DNA from: Treponema sp.
GTDB lineage: Bacteria; Spirochaetota; Spirochaetia; Treponematales; Breznakiellaceae
Assembly: GCA_031257105.1 (NCBI GenBank)
Contig: JAIRPG010000130.1
Span: 1 to 36,083 of the forward strand
DNA length: 36,083 nucleotides
Reading direction: 5' to 3'
The position numbers were made by a program, and so were the translations under genes. Below, piece by piece: positions 24,126-36,083 of this stretch. Numbering within the stretch: the stretch's first letter is position 1; every line of letters starts with the position of its first letter. The notes beneath the pieces were generated by a model. It did no database searches, was not told the origin of the DNA, and saw only the letters and a program-made list of their open reading frames with translations.

Positions 24126-27100
24126 TTATTTAACCACCATTACTTTACGGATCTCGTCGATGTCCGGCCCTACCACCCGAATAAAGTACATACCGCGGGC
24201 GACATCGCGGTTGCTTTGGTTTTTTCCGTCCCAGGAAACCCGGTATTCGCCGGCGTCCAGAGAAGTTCTCACCAGGGGAGCCACCATCGTCCCGTCCAGG
24301 GTGAACACCGAAATCGTCACCCTGCCGGCCCGTTGTAAATTATAGTTGATATAGGTCTTTTCTCCTTTAACAGGATTTATCACGTTGTTAAGGATCGTCA
24401 CCCCGCTCCGTTGAAGTATTGTATCACGAATTTGAAAAGAAAAGGGTTTTACCCGGCGATACCAGTCCGAAGGCGTCTCGGCTCCCCGGGGAACATCGAG
24501 CCGCGCCGCATAGAGGGGCGTTCTGCCGGAGGAACGGAGGAGGAAATAGAATTCCAACTGAGAAGCGTTGCCGTATTTGCTTTTATCGAGGAGGTAGTTT
24601 GCCAGATTTACATTATCGGCGGAAGCGATGCCGGAAGACGACGCGGCGTTGAACTCCCTGGGGACAAGGTTACCGTACTCGCGGTTTTCGTAATCCTTCT
24701 CGTTTGCGTTCCGTCCGTCTAAGGGCGGCAGCCAGAGCCCCCGGATGCCGTGTTCCTCCCGCGCCCGGTAGTTCTGGGGAATGATTTTGTCGGTGGAATA
24801 GTAGAGTTCCGCGGTAAAAGGAGCGTCCGCCAGCGCTTGGTTTCGCAGCGCCTGCACCGTAATGTTCCGGTATTGAAGGATCCCTTTGCCGGTAAAGTCC
24901 CAGATAAGGCCGCTATCCGCATCCTTTGACTGGTAAAAAATGTCTACGGACGCTTCGGAATCGAGGTGGGAAGTATTGTCGCTTGCGCTGTCATCCCGCG
25001 CCCACACCGGCCAGATAAAGTAACGCTCGTCATCCCGGTTGGCGGGCGGCGCGGAAATGAGCAGATCCGTCAAGCGATGGGTGGCGAAGGGTTCAGGCCG
25101 CTCATCGTTGTGGGCCGTCGAAACCAGCGCATTGGCGGGAACGAGCGCATCCGGCGGGGTTTCGAGGTCGGGCACAAACCGGTAGGTGGAATACGTCCAG
25201 TCGGCGGGATACGAAGGCGGCGGGAACGGACCGCTGTCGGCGCCGCCAACCACGTTCATATCCTGCGCCCGCCGGGACATATCCACCAGGTTATAGAGCG
25301 CTATCTGTACCGAACCTTCGGCAAGATCCCGGATAGTAAAGTTATCCGCGAAGCCGATAAGGAATTCCGATTGAGACAAAGCGTTCCACGACAGGGATTC
25401 TGTTTCCACGCCCCCATTGTCCACCAGACGGAATGCGGCTTCCGCGCCGCCGGCGGCTTGTACCGGCTCGGAAATCTGTACATAGACCTCGTTCTTTCCC
25501 GGCAGCGCCAGGGAATAGGCGATTCGCGGCGGAACCGTATCCACCGTTGTAAGCGGCTCATTGGGACGCCCGATACGGGTAACGCCGGTGACCGCCTCCT
25601 TGAGGCTCCCGTTCTTGACGATCTGCCATTGGAGCGTTTTGCCTCCGTCGTTGTAGTCCTTCTCTTTCAGATATATATAGATAGAAAACGCATCCCCAAA
25701 CGCCCGTTCATAACCGCCATATCCCTTCGATGCGTCTATCTCATAACCGTCTACCTGAACCTCGAAGTCGTCAAACGCATCGCCGTCTGACGCCAATTCA
25801 AAGGCAGCCTGAGCGCGGATAGCGTCGATTTTTCCGTTACCGTTGTGATCTTCCGTAAAGCTGTAGAAGAAGTGATCCATGTTGATCCAGTTGACGTTGT
25901 AGTAATACGCGCTCTGGGCGGAATAATACGGCGAAGCGTGAACCGTGAACGAATCGTCCGAAGGTACCGGAATCGCGCGGCTCGCGTAACTGTAATAGAT
26001 ATTCACAAAATCGATTTCCATTCTTGCGCCGGGGAAGAAGTTGAAGTCCCAAAATTTTCCCCGGTTCCCGCCGTCATTGGAATGGGACAAGTCCGTAGGA
26101 GCGGGATCGTCAATGGTATTACCCGATTCAGGCAGGCGGTGTTCCGGGGGATTCCTGGATTTCGGCGCTTGCCTGGTAACGGTAATCGCGCCTTCGGCGG
26201 AACCTATCACTCTGAACAGATGGTAAACGGTATGCGTATGCAGCAGCGCTGAGTCCGCCGGGACGTTCCCATAAGCCGTGTAATCAAAATAGGTGGAGAA
26301 ATAAATCTCCGCCCCGGGTGATTCGCAGATAAAGTCGTACCAGGCGGTGTTTCCGCTGATGTAGATCCGGGTTCCTTCAAAAACGACAACGCTGTCTTGA
26401 TATTCAAACACGCCGCTTCCGCCGTTGGGAAAATCAGGCGTTACCGCGCCGTCAATGGCTTCGGAGCTGTCCCCCCAGCCCCGGCCCTGAATCCAATTGC
26501 CCCGGACAACGATCTTTCGGGAAACGGCGCCGCCGGCGTTCAGAGTGCTTTCCTCCCGGATTTTAACGCTCCCCTGGAGGATGAGGTCTTCGGCCAGCGT
26601 CACAACCGCCGGCGTCAAAGAGGGCGAGGGCGCGCCGCCTATGATCAAATTTCCCAGGGCAATGCCGTTTCCGCCTCCGCTCAGGCTAACCCCGTTTCCG
26701 GTCATAATGATGGACGCTTGATCCATATCCCGGTTCGGCTCGCCGGACTGTTCGGTATTCCAGGCAACGCGGACATTACCGGGCGACGTCATAGAAGCCG
26801 GCCCGGAGAAGCGGTAGGTTCCCTCAAGGCTGGCGTGACCGGAGACCGTGACGGCGGAGCGGCTCAAGACGGTAACGCTGAAGGTGGAAGCGGTGGTAAA
26901 CACGCCGCCATTGTCCGGGTCGCCGGGGGAAGCGCCGCCGGAAGACAACAAGGCGGGCTGCAATGCGGAATTGTCGCCGAGGGTAAGGCTCCCCTGGATA
27001 CCGTAAAACCCTTTGGCTCCCGAAGGGGGAGCGTCCGTTCCGGCGTACCAGCAGCGCCCGTTAAGGTTCAACTCGCCCGCGGCGATTACCAGCGCGCCAT

Positions 27101-30100
27101 CGGACTGCCGTATATCGCCGGTAATGGTTACGGTATTTCCAGGGGTATTGATCAAGACGCCGCCCACCGTAAAACCGGGGTTTATTCCCAGCGTCTGGTT
27201 TGAGGATCCGGTTAAGGTTACCCGGTTGTTATAAGGGGTAAAATCGCCCAGTTCCACCACCGCGCCCCGGAACTCAAAGCCGGCGTCCGGTATGCCGTTC
27301 CCGTTTAAGGCTCCGCCCGCGCCGTTATAGTCCCCCGAAAAGACCGCCCGGTTCGCGGTAATAACGCCCTCATTCGTTACCGCGCCTTGCGCGCGTATCT
27401 CGCCGCCGATAACCATGAGCCCCGTTGAGGCAATGACCGTAGAGCCGGTTCCGGTTTGAGTATAACCCGCCGCCGCCACGGTATTTTCAAAGCTAATTAT
27501 CCCGGCGCTATCGATAGTCACCGTTCCAAGCGGATTATTCACCGAACCAACCGGCCCGTTTACGCTGACGTCCCCTGTAATGGCGCTTCCGGTGTCCAAG
27601 GTCAGCGCTCGCGGACTTCCATCTGTTTGCACCGTCCCAACCGTGATAGCGCCGCCGCCGGCGCTCGTATTCAGCCTCACGTCCTCCGTTAGGGTAACCG
27701 CCCCCGCAATACTGATGCCGTCCGCGCCGCTTGCGCTGATATTTCCGCCAAGGTATACCGGCCCCCCGCCGCTTTGCGCGAACTTCCCGCTGCTTGCCAC
27801 CGCGCCGGTTATGACGAGGTTTCCGTGGTTGGTAATTTGAATGTCCCCTAAGGGATCGCTTGCCGTGCCGATATTTCCGTTTACGCTGATGTTTCCTCCC
27901 GCAATGGCGCTTCCGGTGTCCAAGGTCAGCGCTCGCGGACTTCCGTCTGTTTGCACCGTCCTAACCGTGATAGCGCCGCTGCCGGCGCCCGTATCCAGCG
28001 TCACGTCCGCCATTAGGGTAACCGCCCCCGCAATACTGATGCCGCCCGCGCCGCTTGCGCTGATATTCCCGCCAAGGCGTACCGGCCCCCCGCCGCTCTG
28101 CGCGAACTTCCCGCTGCTTGCCACTGCGCCGGTTATGACGAGGTTTCCGCCATTGGTAATTTGAATGTCCCCCAAGGGCGCGCTTGCCGTGCCGATATTC
28201 CCGTTTACGCTGATGTCTCCCGTACTGGCGCTTCCGGCGTTCAAGGTCAGCGCTCGCGGACTTCCGTCTGTTTGCACCGTCCCAACCGTGATAGCGCCGC
28301 CGCCGGCGCTCGTATTCAGCGTCACGTCTTCCGTTAGGGTAACCGTCCCCGCAATACTGATGCCGCCCGCGCTACCCACGCCGCTTGCGCTGATATTCCC
28401 GCCAAGGTAGACCGCCCCCGCGCCGGTATATTCAAATTTTCCACCTACAGTGGCAGCGGCGTTGTTTTGCAGCGTAAAGTTGCCTGCGGCTGTACCAATC
28501 AGAAAATCATGCATCACCTCAATGGGGGAGGGTATCGTTCTGTTTCCGGTTTGAATTTGGAGATCGTAAAAGGTCGTTATACCCGCCAGCTCTCCGTTTC
28601 CTGAAAATTCCACCCTCCCGCTGGTACTATTGAAATTTGTTCCCAGCGTCTGCGACCAGCTGATCTTCAACGTACCGTTGTTTGAAAACATCCCTGGCCC
28701 TGCAAGGGTTACATCGTACGTCCGTATGTCAAAAACGCCGCCGCTGTTTATCGTCAGCGTCCCGTATATGGTAGTAGCGTCGCCCGCGGTTCGCTGTCCG
28801 TTGTTAATGATGAGATTGTAAAAGTCCGTTATACCCGCCAGCCCTCCGTTTCCTGAAAATTCCACCGTCCCGCTGGTACCGCTGGTACTATTGAAATATG
28901 TTCCCAGCGTTCCCAGCGTCTGCGACCCGCTGATCTTCAACGTACCGTTGTTTGAAAACATCCCTGGCCCTGCAAGGGTTACAACGTACGTCTGTATGTC
29001 AAAAACGCCGCCGCTGTTTATCGTCAGCGTCCCGTCGATGTCGAAGCTGTTCCCGGCGGTGAGCCTGCCATATATCACCAGCCCTCCGTATATGGTAGTA
29101 GCGTCGCCCGCGGTTCGCTGTCCGTTGTTAATGATGAGATTGTAAAAGGCCGTTATACCCGCCAGCTCTCCGTTTCCTGAAAATTCCACCGTCCCATCGG
29201 TAAAACCGATGGGACTATTGAAATTTATTCCCAGCGTCTGCGTCCCGCTGATCTTCAACGTACCGTAGTTTGAAAACGTCCCTGTAAGGTTTACATCGTG
29301 CGTCTGTATGTCAAAAACGCCGGTATTGGTTATTATCGTCAGCGCTCCGCTGATGTCGAAGCCGCTCCCGGCGGTGTAGGTACCGGATACCGTGACGTTG
29401 CCCAGTGTGGCTGAACCGCTTACCGAGATGGTCTTGCCGGTTCCCGAGAGCGTAATGGTAGAAGTGGCGCTGCAGGTAAGCGTTCCGGCGATGATGAAAT
29501 CACCCTCCTCTTTAAAAGGGCCGCCGCCGGGTATCTCTAGCGTACCGTCGATGACGGTATCACCGGTTACCCATATATTGTTCGCCCCGGTGTCCAGGGA
29601 GCCGCCGCTGTCTACCGCCAGCGCTCCGCCGATGTGTAAGGAGCCGCTCACGACGGTGTAGGAACCGGTTACCGTGACGTTACCCAGTATGCCTGAACCG
29701 TCTATCGAGATGGTCTTGCCGGTTCCCGAGAGCGTAATGGGAGAAGCGGCGTCGCAGGTGAGCGTTCCGGTGCTGGTGCTGGTGAAATTACCCCCCGCTA
29801 CAAAAGCGCCGCCGACGGGTATCTGTAGCGTACCGTCGATGACGGTATCACCGGTTACCGATATGCTGTACGCCCCGATGTCCAGGGAGCCGCCGCTGTC
29901 TACCGCCAGCGCTCCGCTGATGGTGAAGCCGCTCCCGGCGGTGTAGGAACCGGTTACCGTGACGTTGCCCAATGCGCCTGAACCGCTTACCGAGATGGCG
30001 CCGGTTCCCGAGAGCGTAATGGTAGAAGCGGCGTCGCAGGTGAGCGTTCCGGCGCTGGTGAAATTACCCCCCGCTACAAAAGCGCCGCCGACGGGTATCT

Positions 30101-30983
30101 GTAGCGTACCGTCGATGACGGTATCACCGGCTACCGATATGCTGAACGCTCCGATGTCCAGGGAGCCGCCGCTGTTTACCGCCAGCGCTCTGCCGATGTT
30201 GAAGCCGCTCCCGGCGGTGTAGGTACCGGTTACCGTGACGTTGCCCAGTGTGTCTGAACCGCTTACCGAGATGGTCTTGCCGGTTCCCGAGAGCGTAATG
30301 GTAGAAGAGCCGCCGCAGGTGAACGTTCCGGCGTCGGTAAAATTACCGGCTACCGATATGCTGTACGCCCCGATGTCAAGGGAGCCGCCGCTGTTTACCT
30401 CCAGCGCTCCGCCGATGTCGAAGCCGCTCCCGGCGGTGTAGGTACCGGTTACCGTGACGTTGCCCAGTGCGCCTGAACCGCTTACCGAGATAGTCTTGCT
30501 GGTTCCCGAGAGCGTAATGGTAGAAGCGGCGTCGCAGGTGAACGTTCCGGCATCGGTAAAATTACCGGCTACCGATATGCTGTTCGCCCCGATGTACAGG
30601 GAGCCGCCGGTTTGGATATCCACGTCTCTAGAAAAGGTATGCGTTGCAGAGGCATTGCCCGGATCGCTCAGGTCAAACGTGCCGTTCACCGTTACAGAGC
30701 CGGTAACATCCAAATTGCCGCCGGTTTTGGTTAGGACCGCGCCGGCCGCTATGGTTAAAGCCCCTATAGACACATCGGCGTTGATCTCCGGACTATACAT
30801 GCCCGTACCGCTCGTATCGATTATGATAACGTCATCGCCCGAAGCCGGCACGGCGTTTGTATCCCAGTTGCCTGGAGTGTTCCAGGAAGTATCTGTCGAG
30901 CCGTTCCAAGTCGTCGTCGTCTGCCCCCAACTCCAGACGGCGCACGAAACGAAGATACAAGCGGCTAACAGGCGTTGTTTCAC
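24126..30983 (-). CDS. giant secreted beta-rich repeat protein with FlgD-like C-terminal domain
   Basis: I place the start at the GTG at 30983 (2285 aa) because GAGGG (30993-30997) lies 9 nt upstream and the protein then begins with a classical signal peptide (M-K-Q-R-L-L-A-A-C-I-F-V...S-W-G-Q). The open frame extends 22 codons further to a TTG at 31049, which lacks these signals. Roughly residues 25-1500 are Gly/Thr/Ser-rich beta-helix-like repeats in three families, like filamentous adhesins. Residues about 1500-2180 are more complex and include E-D-H-N-G-N-G-K-I-D, an EF-hand-like calcium loop. The last ~90 residues resemble FlgD-type Ig or T9SS-like sorting modules (Y-N-L-Q-R-A-G-R-V, then W-D-G-K-N, then G-M-Y-F-I-R-V). 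No autotransporter barrel or LPXTG is seen. Surface or periplasmic location is likely; a cell-surface adhesin role is inference. Confidence 0.85.
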   Translation of the reverse strand: MKQRLLAACIFVSCAVWSWGQTTTTWNGSTDTSWNTPGNWDTNAVPASGDDVIIIDTSGTGMYSPEINADVSIGALTIAAGAVLTKTGGNLDVTGSVTVNGTFDLSDPGNASATHTFSRDVDIQTGGSLYIGANSISVAGNFTDAGTFTCDAASTITLSGTSKTISVSGSGALGNVTVTGTYTAGSGFDIGGALEVNSGGSLDIGAYSISVAGNFTDAGTFTCGGSSTITLSGTGKTISVSGSDTLGNVTVTGTYTAGSGFNIGRALAVNSGGSLDIGAFSISVAGDTVIDGTLQIPVGGAFVAGGNFTSAGTLTCDAASTITLSGTGAISVSGSGALGNVTVTGSYTAGSGFTISGALAVDSGGSLDIGAYSISVTGDTVIDGTLQIPVGGAFVAGGNFTSTSTGTLTCDAASPITLSGTGKTISIDGSGILGNVTVTGSYTVVSGSLHIGGALAVDSGGSLDTGANNIWVTGDTVIDGTLEIPGGGPFKEEGDFIIAGTLTCSATSTITLSGTGKTISVSGSATLGNVTVSGTYTAGSGFDISGALTIITNTGVFDIQTHDVNLTGTFSNYGTLKISGTQTLGINFNSPIGFTDGTVEFSGNGELAGITAFYNLIINNGQRTAGDATTIYGGLVIYGRLTAGNSFDIDGTLTINSGGVFDIQTYVVTLAGPGMFSNNGTLKISGSQTLGTLGTYFNSTSGTSGTVEFSGNGGLAGITDFYNLIINNGQRTAGDATTIYGTLTINSGGVFDIRTYDVTLAGPGMFSNNGTLKISWSQTLGTNFNSTSGRVEFSGNGELAGITTFYDLQIQTGNRTIPSPIEVMHDFLIGTAAGNFTLQNNAAATVGGKFEYTGAGAVYLGGNISASGVGSAGGISIAGTVTLTEDVTLNTSAGGGAITVGTVQTDGSPRALTLNAGSASTGDISVNGNIGTASAPLGDIQITNGGNLVITGAVASSGKFAQSGGGPVRLGGNISASGAGGISIAGAVTLMADVTLDTGAGSGAITVRTVQTDGSPRALTLDTGSAIAGGNISVNGNIGTASDPLGDIQITNHGNLVITGAVASSGKFAQSGGGPVYLGGNISASGADGISIAGAVTLTEDVRLNTSAGGGAITVGTVQTDGSPRALTLDTGSAITGDVSVNGPVGSVNNPLGTVTIDSAGIISFENTVAAAGYTQTGTGSTVIASTGLMVIGGEIRAQGAVTNEGVITANRAVFSGDYNGAGGALNGNGIPDAGFEFRGAVVELGDFTPYNNRVTLTGSSNQTLGINPGFTVGGVLINTPGNTVTITGDIRQSDGALVIAAGELNLNGRCWYAGTDAPPSGAKGFYGIQGSLTLGDNSALQPALLSSGGASPGDPDNGGVFTTASTFSVTVLSRSAVTVSGHASLEGTYRFSGPASMTSPGNVRVAWNTEQSGEPNRDMDQASIIMTGNGVSLSGGGNGIALGNLIIGGAPSPSLTPAVVTLAEDLILQGSVKIREESTLNAGGAVSRKIVVRGNWIQGRGWGDSSEAIDGAVTPDFPNGGSGVFEYQDSVVVFEGTRIYISGNTAWYDFICESPGAEIYFSTYFDYTAYGNVPADSALLHTHTVYHLFRVIGSAEGAITVTRQAPKSRNPPEHRLPESGNTIDDPAPTDLSHSNDGGNRGKFWDFNFFPGARMEIDFVNIYYSYASRAIPVPSDDSFTVHASPYYSAQSAYYYNVNWINMDHFFYSFTEDHNGNGKIDAIRAQAAFELASDGDAFDDFEVQVDGYEIDASKGYGGYERAFGDAFSIYIYLKEKDYNDGGKTLQWQIVKNGSLKEAVTGVTRIGRPNEPLTTVDTVPPRIAYSLALPGKNEVYVQISEPVQAAGGAEAAFRLVDNGGVETESLSWNALSQSEFLIGFADNFTIRDLAEGSVQIALYNLVDMSRRAQDMNVVGGADSGPFPPPSYPADWTYSTYRFVPDLETPPDALVPANALVSTAHNDERPEPFATHRLTDLLISAPPANRDDERYFIWPVWARDDSASDNTSHLDSEASVDIFYQSKDADSGLIWDFTGKGILQYRNITVQALRNQALADAPFTAELYYSTDKIIPQNYRAREEHGIRGLWLPPLDGRNANEKDYENREYGNLVPREFNAASSSGIASADNVNLANYLLDKSKYGNASQLEFYFLLRSSGRTPLYAARLDVPRGAETPSDWYRRVKPFSFQIRDTILQRSGVTILNNVINPVKGEKTYINYNLQRAGRVTISVFTLDGTMVAPLVRTSLDAGEYRVSWDGKNQSNRDVARGMYFIRVVGPDIDEIRKVMVVK
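27520..28410. repeat. about 324-bp coding repeat, three copies, in the giant gene
   Basis: Three copies with a period of 321-324 nt, anchored by CGCTCGCGGA at 27606, 27930 and 28251 on the plus strand. Each encodes a unit with T-V-Q-T-D-G-S-P-R-A-L-T-L and I-S-V-N-G-N-I-G. DNA identity is high enough to permit homologous recombination between copies. Confidence 0.85.
28560..29370. repeat. about 260-bp coding repeats, three copies, in the giant gene
   Basis: Three related units marked by the protein motif E-F-S-G-N-G-(E/G)-L-A-G-I-T. Two full copies are 261 nt apart, and the third unit is longer. They encode F-S-N-N-G-T-L-K-I-S and N-N-G-Q-R-T-A-G-D-A-T-T-I-Y. Confidence 0.8.
29390..30610. 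repeat. 219-285-bp coding repeats, five copies, in the giant gene
   Basis: Five units, each containing L-G-N-V-T-V near plus-strand positions 29392, 29674, 29959, 30235 and 30454 (spacings 282, 285, 276 and 219 nt). They encode Y-T-A-G-S-G-F-D-I and G-G-S-L-D-I-G-A. Length differences arise from optional sub-blocks (G-T-L-Q-I-P-V-G-G-A-F), typical of unequal exchange. Confidence 0.85.
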
Positions 30984-31077
30984 GGGATTCATCCCTCGCG
31001 CCGCCAGGATAAGACATAAAACAGAGCCTGAGTTCTCATTTTGGTTCAAGTATAGTTGTCTTTGCCCGAAAAACCAA

Positions 31078-34477: not shown

Positions 34478-35787
34478 TTCTGTCCTCCTAATGTTCCAAA
34501 TGGAACGTTTAATTCTTTTTCCAGATCTAAGATTGTCGATATAAGATTGTACTGTTCCTGCTGAAGCTGGTTTTCCACCTGAAGCGAACTATCGGCGGCG
34601 TTCCGGAGGCTCTGATAATCCGCCGTCCCGTTCCGGTAAGCTTCCTCGTACATTGCATAGGTGCTCTGGGCCAATTCTACGTTGAGTTTCGCCGCGGCGA
34701 TAGATTCCATCGTTTTTTCAATCGTCCGCCGGTACTGGCTTATCCGGTCTTCCCGAGAGCGCAGCGTTTCCGCCAGCCTCATCTGGGAAGAACGGACGCT
34801 GTCGTCCAGGCTTTCCAACTTGGTCTTTGATGCCGACCAGGGGAAGAAGTTGTCCAGATTGAGGCTCACGCTTATGGAGAAAGAGCTGGAACCGCCTTCG
34901 CTCCAGGCGTTGTTGCCGTACTGAAAACTGGGGTTCCACTGGAGGGTAAGGTTTGGCAGATACGCCTGATACCAGGCTTCTTTGCGCTGAATCTCCAGGT
35001 TTTCGATGGTTTTTTGAAGCGCTGCGGTTTCCAAGGAGCCGTTACCGGCGGTATCGCGCTCCAGAAAAGCGCCCGCGCCGGCAATGCTTTCATCAGAGCC
35101 CAGATCGCCCCTAAGGGTTATTTCCGTTCCCCGGGGAAGGCCGATAAGCGTCTTAAAGGTATCCAGGGCGTTTTCGTACAACATCTGGGTGTTCCGTACG
35201 GTAGGCCGCTGTTTTTCCAGATCCACCCTGGCGGTAAGCTCGTCCAGCCGGGAAGCCTGGCCAACCTTTGCCCGGGCGGCGCTCTGGTCATACCGCGCTT
35301 GGGCGCTTTCCAGATTCCGCTGAGCCAGGTTTACGTTCGCTTGATAGAGCAGTATTTGGTAGAACAGTTTCCGGGTTTGTAATTCCACATCCGTCTTGGC
35401 CTGTTCAAGGGTTAAAAGTCCTGCCTCATAATCGGAACGGGCCTTCTTGATGGTCTCCAGCGCCGATACGGACAGGGTAAGCGAGGAGGACACCGAAAGC
35501 GAGGTTGTCCAATTGTTCTGCCCCGGCGGCAGTTCCGTATAGAACCGTGTGGGATGGCTTTCTTGCGCGCTCGCCCTAATCGTGGGAATCAGCATATTCC
35601 ATGAGCGGGCGGAAGCCCGTTTTTTCCCCTCCGCATCCAGAGCGCCGCGCTTAAGGCTTAGGTTGTTATCCAAGGCAAGCTTTACCGCGTCATCAACGGT
35701 TAGTTCAGCCGCGCCGGAAGTCTGCGCCCCCGCTCCTATCAGGAAGCCGGTTGTCAAAACAAATAAGAACACGAGTTGCTTCTTCAT
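34474..35787 (-). CDS. TolC-family outer-membrane efflux protein
   Basis: A 437-aa protein with an N-terminal signal peptide (M-K-K-Q-L-V-F-L-F-V-L...G-A-G-A-Q) and the two-fold repeat of TolC: L-T-V-D-D-A-V-K-L-A-L-D-N-N-L near 29-43, long coiled-coil helices (about 130-215 and 330-420), and a beta segment with L-T-L-Q-W-N-P. It would form a trimeric outer-membrane exit duct. It is the first gene of a two-gene operon with the adaptor. The Shine-Dalgarno is weak (AGGAAAGG is about 13 nt before the ATG). AT-rich upstream DNA contains a TATAGT and an ATAACA inverted repeat. Confidence 0.92.
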   Translation of the reverse strand: MKKQLVFLFVLTTGFLIGAGAQTSGAAELTVDDAVKLALDNNLSLKRGALDAEGKKRASARSWNMLIPTIRASAQESHPTRFYTELPPGQNNWTTSLSVSSSLTLSVSALETIKKARSDYEAGLLTLEQAKTDVELQTRKLFYQILLYQANVNLAQRNLESAQARYDQSAARAKVGQASRLDELTARVDLEKQRPTVRNTQMLYENALDTFKTLIGLPRGTEITLRGDLGSDESIAGAGAFLERDTAGNGSLETAALQKTIENLEIQRKEAWYQAYLPNLTLQWNPSFQYGNNAWSEGGSSSFSISVSLNLDNFFPWSASKTKLESLDDSVRSSQMRLAETLRSREDRISQYRRTIEKTMESIAAAKLNVELAQSTYAMYEEAYRNGTADYQSLRNAADSSLQVENQLQQEQYNLISTILDLEKELNVPFGTLGGQK

Positions 35788-35843
35788 GGGAAAAAAATAA
35801 GCCTTTCCTGTAAAAAAAACTATAAATCAAAACTAAAATATTT

Positions 35844-35858
35844 ATAACATTTTGTTAT
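35844..35858. promoter_or_regulatory. inverted repeat upstream of the TolC/adaptor operon
   Basis: ATAACA (35844-35849) / TGTTAT (35853-35858) with a 3-nt centre lies about 57 nt upstream of the TolC ATG, within AT-rich DNA that probably holds its promoter. It could be an operator for a repressor of the efflux operon; no regulator gene is adjacent. Confidence 0.35.
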
Positions 35859-35877
35859 GAGCCGAGGCTGTTGCGCC

Positions 35878-35924
35878 GAACGGGCGCGTCAGTAAACGGA
35901 CACGCCCGTTTACTGACGGCGTTC
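35878..35924. repeat. long hairpin, start of an intergenic hairpin chain
   Basis: Perfect 13-bp arms CGTCAGTAAACGG (35887-35899) / CCGTTTACTGACG (35906-35918) with a 6-nt loop, plus an outer GAACG/CGTTC stem (35878-35882 with 35920-35924). No open frame covers this stretch. Confidence 0.8.
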
Positions 35925-35928
35925 ATGA

Positions 35929-35965
35929 GAGTTGTTCAGTAACCCGGTTGGTTATTAAACAACTC
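35929..35965. repeat. compound hairpin with CGGTT loop
   Basis: Outer stem GAGTTGTT (35929-35936) / AACAACTC (35958-35965). Inner stem TAACC (35940-35944) / GGTTA (35950-35954) around a CGGTT loop. It begins 4 nt after the preceding hairpin. Confidence 0.75.
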
Positions 35966-35973
35966 TATTTAGT

Positions 35974-36008
35974 GTCTGTCCACAAAGTCGGTTACTTTGC
36001 GGACAGAC
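35974..36008. repeat. compound hairpin with CGGTT loop
   Basis: Outer stem GTCTGTCC (35974-35981) / GGACAGAC (36001-36008). Inner stem CAAAGT (35983-35988) / ACTTTG (35994-35999) around a CGGTT loop (35989-35993). The right arm can also pair with a second GGTCTGTCC at 36055-36063. Confidence 0.75.
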
Positions 36009-36083
36009 CTTGCATTTTCTCGCCTAACGGCTGCGAAAATGCGTTTTTTAAGGTGGTCTGTCCATAATGTGTCTACATTATGG
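36001..36083. repeat. nested inverted repeats at the window end
   Basis: GGACAGACC (36001-36009) / GGTCTGTCC (36055-36063) encloses GCATTTTC (36012-36019) / GAAAATGC (36035-36042), itself enclosing GCC-TAAC-GGC. A last hairpin, CCATAATGT (36062-36070) / ACATTATGG (36075-36083), has a 4-nt loop and ends at the window edge. The structure may continue beyond it. Confidence 0.75.

Follow-up and report, generated by a model that had tools for sequence, protein, structure and literature searches.

The rightmost 112 bp of the window very probably represent a truncated MITE (miniature inverted-repeat transposable element) of 119-120 bp that entered a TATTTA site next to a hairpin left over from another MITE family, to which it is homologous. 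(The window is the whole stretch of Treponema sp. DNA that was analysed, 36,083 nucleotides.) We refer to the truncated element as family 1 and to its homolog as family 2. Family 1 is dispersed, has no coding capacity, and displays identical ends, 6-bp duplications, and three covarying hairpins. This reading explains both the run of hairpins at the window end and many assembly breaks in the source genome, and it adds the description of a pair of related MITE families from bacteria akin to the treponemes of termite guts.

Inverted repeats at the window end

A sequence-only reading of this DNA had described positions 35876-36083 as one chain of at least five nested hairpins. The inverted-repeat arms that it listed are all present: a perfect 13-bp pair (35887-35899/35906-35918), arms of 17 nt matching at 88% (35928-35944/35950-35966) and of 15 nt matching at 93% (35974-35988/35994-36008), and pairs of 8 bp (36012-36019/36035-36042) and 9 bp (36062-36070/36075-36083). 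The alternative pairing of 35994-36009 with 36055-36070 is also present. When both strands were folded, as had been suggested, each strand of the 208 nt gave a better energy than every one of 200 dinucleotide-shuffled sequences (z -10.0 and -11.2). The inverted repeats at the window end are real and far beyond chance. The single chain did not hold up, however, since the hairpins belong to at least two separate repeats (one from 35972, the other at 35929-35965) and to one single-copy palindrome. In order, a leftover family-2 hairpin appears to be followed directly by a family-1 insertion.

The single-copy member, hairpin 1, is a quasi-palindrome (35879-35924) in which outer pairs extend the 13-bp arms, and it can be folded in two overlapping ways. 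In a whole-genome search it matched itself and no second copy. An outer-membrane efflux protein (PF02321) is encoded ~90-140 bp downstream of it, and hairpin 1 is a possible candidate for an operator or a terminator; no sigma-70-like promoter or terminator match was found in 35500-36083.

The window is an entire contig (C127) in an assembly of 160 contigs and 2.54 Mb, and position 36083 is the contig end. Elsewhere in the window, a very long open reading frame (2307 aa) occupies 24126-31049 on the minus strand. Many contigs of the same assembly terminate in or at a family-1 element, which is expected of a short-read assembler meeting a high-copy repeat. The earlier concern that the structure might be an assembly artefact was thus half right: the edge is an assembly break, but the repeat itself is real.

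Family-1 copies, ends, and target duplications

The proposal to look for copies elsewhere proved fruitful. A whole-genome search with the 208 nt listed 48 matches in the 2.54 Mb, of which ~40 or more are nearly complete, and most of the 48 listed matches span only query positions ~84-106 to 208; these copy counts rest on genome searches together with retrieved stretches. In a flanked alignment of copies, the element is 119-120 bp long, starts with GTGTCTGTCCACAAAG, and finishes with ATTATGGACAGACAC. Both ends of the 119-120 bp copies carry 10-bp terminal inverted repeats, GTGTCTGTCC/GGACAGACAC. The consensus of the ends is TA-GTGTCTGTCC.

In the window, bases 1-112 of the 120 bp occupy 35972-36083 on the forward strand, with the left terminal inverted repeat at 35972-35981 (forward strand). 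TATTTA, the left copy of the 6-bp target duplication, is placed by homology at 35966-35971 (forward strand), the consensus being taken from the exact duplications of other copies. The last 8 bases of the element (ACAGACAC) are lost at the contig end, and the right copy of TATTTA falls beyond it. The 120-bp copies elsewhere therefore bear out the earlier suggestion of a nested repeat running past the edge, what is missing here being 8 bp and a 6-bp target duplication.

Exact 6-bp duplications were found at 21 of 81 candidate end pairs, compared to a mean of 1.8 expected when the right flanks were shuffled. In this same catalogue of 81 pairs, there were no exact direct repeats of 5, 7, 8, 9, or 10 bp at the copy borders. 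The catalogue, which was built automatically, contains false pairs that join an element end to an internal arm, and these can only dilute the duplication signal. Among full-length clean copies, the duplication length is constant, with exact 6-bp duplications in 13 of 22 and one mismatch in 3 more. The consensus of the duplications, TAWWTA, is a palindromic target. Because such ends and 6-bp duplications are the defining marks of a MITE, and the element is also short, non-coding, and dispersed, we call family 1 a MITE.

No convincing interrupted gene was observed among the 37 copies checked. Genes interrupted by copies had been considered as empty sites and were rejected, as the junction-spanning frames look spurious or run upstream of genes. 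Our searches met no same-genus genome and accordingly yielded no orthologous empty site for a family-1 insertion. Variants of 135-136 bp are present at L198, L199, and L205 (G034) and at L212 and L214 (G046); they contain an extra small hairpin (AAGGAACCTTCGGTTCC or GGACTTTAGTCC) and represent nested hairpin gains.

Three local hairpins

On the forward strand of the window, family 1 comprises hairpin A (35974-36008; 15-bp stem, loop CGGTT), a middle hairpin (36012-36042; GCATTTTC/GAAAATGC enclosing a GCC/GGC stem), and hairpin B (36056-36083; 15-bp stem, loop GTCT). The contig end truncates hairpin B, which by homology would end at 36089-36090. Across 28 distinct copies, local hairpin pairs are formed in 97.9% of cells, and 6 local pairs are changed on both sides, in 21 cells (for example, columns 93-112, with C-G in 15 and U-A in 12).

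The sequence-only reading had also proposed switching between folds. The alternative pairings do exist, because each element contains four copies of the terminal motif in alternating orientation. Nevertheless, the alternative long-range fold has two doubly changed pairs, both in the middle hairpin that the folds share, and among the 28 distinct copies none of the long-range pairs found in that fold alone is changed on both sides. Furthermore, both selection and hairpin-templated repair may contribute to the agreement between arms. Since repair within a hairpin can produce the same agreement, the covariation shows that the local hairpins are kept and does not establish an RNA function.

These results bear on the idea that the stretch is an RNA element, whether structured, regulatory, or switching between conformations like a riboswitch. 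The very stable folds, the alternative partners for GGACAGACC, and the local covariation all speak for it, yet we regard it as scarcely credible: beyond the lack of double changes in the pairs unique to the alternative fold, the only Rfam matches are sub-threshold chance matches, none of them within 35876-36083, the copies lie between genes in unrelated contexts and have target duplications, and the promoter and terminator search of 35500-36083 mentioned above was negative. A recombination locus, which had been suggested as well, was not supported.

A second, homologous family

Hairpin 2 (35929-35965, forward strand) is a solo 37-bp hairpin, designated A', with the loop CGGTT. It matches one end of the full family-2 elements, which are 117-118 bp long except for two variants that reach 127 and 135 bp, and it has matches at six other places in the genome (the best, 93% over 40 bp). 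Family-2 ends read GA(G/C)NTGTT, and the element consists of left, middle, and right hairpins, the left one sharing its CGGTT loop with family 1. Its duplications are 5 bp: TAGTA at L117 and TAATA at L184.

A global alignment of family 1 with family 2 scored 82, whereas the maximum for shuffles was 51 and the reverse complement scored 40. Judging from this alignment, the two families appear to be homologous, with shared order and orientation, well above chance. At L110 (2017-2133), a family-2 element interrupts hairpin B of a family-1 copy. TAATG is preserved on its right side, and TAATA (one mismatch) stands on its left, giving an apparent 5-bp duplication, and the locus seems to be a natural example of an insertion into known sequence. 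Together the two families offer a testable case in which the three-hairpin blueprint was kept while the terminal repeats, the stems, and the duplication length (6 versus 5 bp) changed.

Solo hairpins

Single hairpins of 30-39 bp with family-1 ends also occur, many of them with exact 6-bp duplications. Eight tested solo or A/B hybrid forms can each be derived from the full element by one internal deletion, with 0-1 mismatch, and direct repeats of 8 and 9 bp mark the deletion junctions in solo A and solo B. From this one-deletion match and the position of the junctions, we infer that the solos are remnants, generated by deletion in place from full elements, and not separate transposons. Such remnants would form through slippage between the repeated GTCTGTCC/GGACAGAC motifs across hairpins. 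Singlets of REP have also been explained by the REPIN authors as deletion remnants of a larger unit (PMC3116915).

Alternatively, the 30-39 bp hairpin could be the mobile basic unit, with the 120-bp element formed by two solos around a spacer. That the solos carry their own exact 6-bp duplications and are present in several phyla fits such an origin, but we consider it unlikely, given that one deletion in the full element accounts for each solo and hybrid form observed and that A/B hybrids are expected only from deletion. Solo A hairpins also lean toward greater divergence than the A hairpins in full copies (mean of 1.4 versus 0.6 substitutions, p = 0.06). In addition, two ends with transposase bound to them would hardly fit on a 38-bp duplex.

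We think it distinctly unlikely that the hairpins themselves are recognised by the mobilising enzyme and that the 30-39 bp solos are still mobile. This idea comes from the observation that the two homologous families differ in their ends and stems but have in common the three-hairpin blueprint and a left hairpin with a CGGTT loop. If it were true, the solos would be among the smallest DNA transposons leaving target duplications and would bear on the minimum size of a DNA transposon. We favor deletion from full elements as the source of the solos.

Mobilisation and the search for a partner

In the mechanism that we propose for the full element, a transposase acting in trans would bind GTGTCTGTCC(RNAAA), cut both ends, and insert the element at TAWWTA with a 6-bp stagger. 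The combination of terminal inverted repeats and a target duplication of fixed length makes an enzyme of the DDE type probable. Neither the element's own genome nor the carrier loci yielded an autonomous element or a transposase with GTGTCTGTCC ends. DDE_Tnp_1 (PF01609) and rve (PF00665) are absent from its own genome, and paired GTGTCTGTCC ends are absent around the DDE_Tnp_1 loci (ten carriers), the Y1 loci, and the ISNCY_1 loci of carriers. At L311/L313, GTGTCTGTCC is located within or beside transposase coding sequence, and at L241 a MITE copy abuts an IS gene. A generic scan of the carrier transposase loci for inverted repeats with duplications yielded only two weak, unrelated pairs. We rejected a 3.2-kb TIR pair (G034, L197) and a 1.2-kb pair (G079, L217), which look like chance or degenerate copies. 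A multi-copy IS may be missing from fragmented, incomplete MAGs. A literature search on the TIR, TANNTA, or treponeme MITEs found nothing relevant.

Small intergenic hairpins present as doublets and singlets and at high copy number recall REPINs (PMC3116915), and the elements might accordingly be REP/REPIN-type palindromes moved as single strands by RAYT, the Y1 tyrosine transposase. This route is very unlikely. The duplications are of fixed length, exact at 6 bp, and Y1_Tnp (PF01797) is absent from the element's own genome (86% complete), both of which argue against it; moreover, these hairpins do not flank the Y1 loci found in relatives, and family-1 ends do not have GTAG or CGTC tags at the hairpin foot (compared with PMC3733652). 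An element derived from IS200/IS605 was also rejected, since it would be expected to have no target duplication, whereas family 1 has duplications of 6 bp. A transposase supplied in trans is thus the route that we retain.

Distribution

Within the same bacterial family, 41 of 160 genomes, from 23 of 57 genera, contain the exact hairpin-core pattern, and the source genome carries the most sites (63). An earlier scan used a solo-hairpin pattern: all 8 matching genomes belong to the same family, with none among 31 genomes from the order's other families. Record titles of the matching contigs are mostly Treponema and Spirochaetaceae MAGs.

Desulfobulbaceae contain MITEs of 141-267 bp that have the same GTGTCTGTCC ends and TAWWTA-like 6-bp duplications, several of them exact (L218-L223, L235; G079), and solos with exact 6-bp duplications are found there too. 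In one Desulfobulbaceae genome (G079), we observed more than 120 end motifs. Single solos occur in a few other groups, and solos span several phyla. Phage and plasmid collections gave no match, and pattern matches in IMG/VR were discarded because they look like chance single 10-mers within viral sequence.

Palindromes with GTGTCTGTCCC, seen in Lachnospiraceae, Atopobiaceae, Caulobacter, and others, share the core but lack exact 6-bp duplications and were set aside as a different repeat. At L133, L148, L154, L179, L182, L192, and L195 (Firmicutes, Actinobacteria, Caulobacter), the palindromes have the form GTGTCTGTCCC...GGGACAGACAC; these are probably an unrelated REP-type repeat.

Comparison with known systems

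By description, the small dispersed repeats (SDR) of Nostoc resemble the present elements in being very small, with predicted hairpins and nested insertions. They differ in having a length of 21-27 nt and in being described as possibly moving through RNA.

Like the elements here, REP/REPIN sequences (PMC3116915, PMC3733652) are intergenic hairpins, single and multiple, whose singlets have been attributed to deletion. Unlike them, the present elements have target duplications and carry neither an associated Y1 transposase nor a GTAG/CGTC tag.

Bacterial MITEs such as Correia elements and Chunjie (PMC10969869, PMC2229807), like family 1, are short, non-coding, and dispersed, with terminal inverted repeats, a target duplication, and a strong fold. 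In contrast to those MITEs, no parent insertion sequence was found for family 1, which has three separate hairpins, a terminal repeat that occurs four times per element, and a homolog, family 2, whose ends differ and whose duplication is 5 bp. We conclude that family 1 is a new MITE family, an ordinary kind of element rather than a novel type of system. Two features stand out: the three-hairpin blueprint is common to two families that differ in their ends and duplication lengths, and single-hairpin remnants are abundant.
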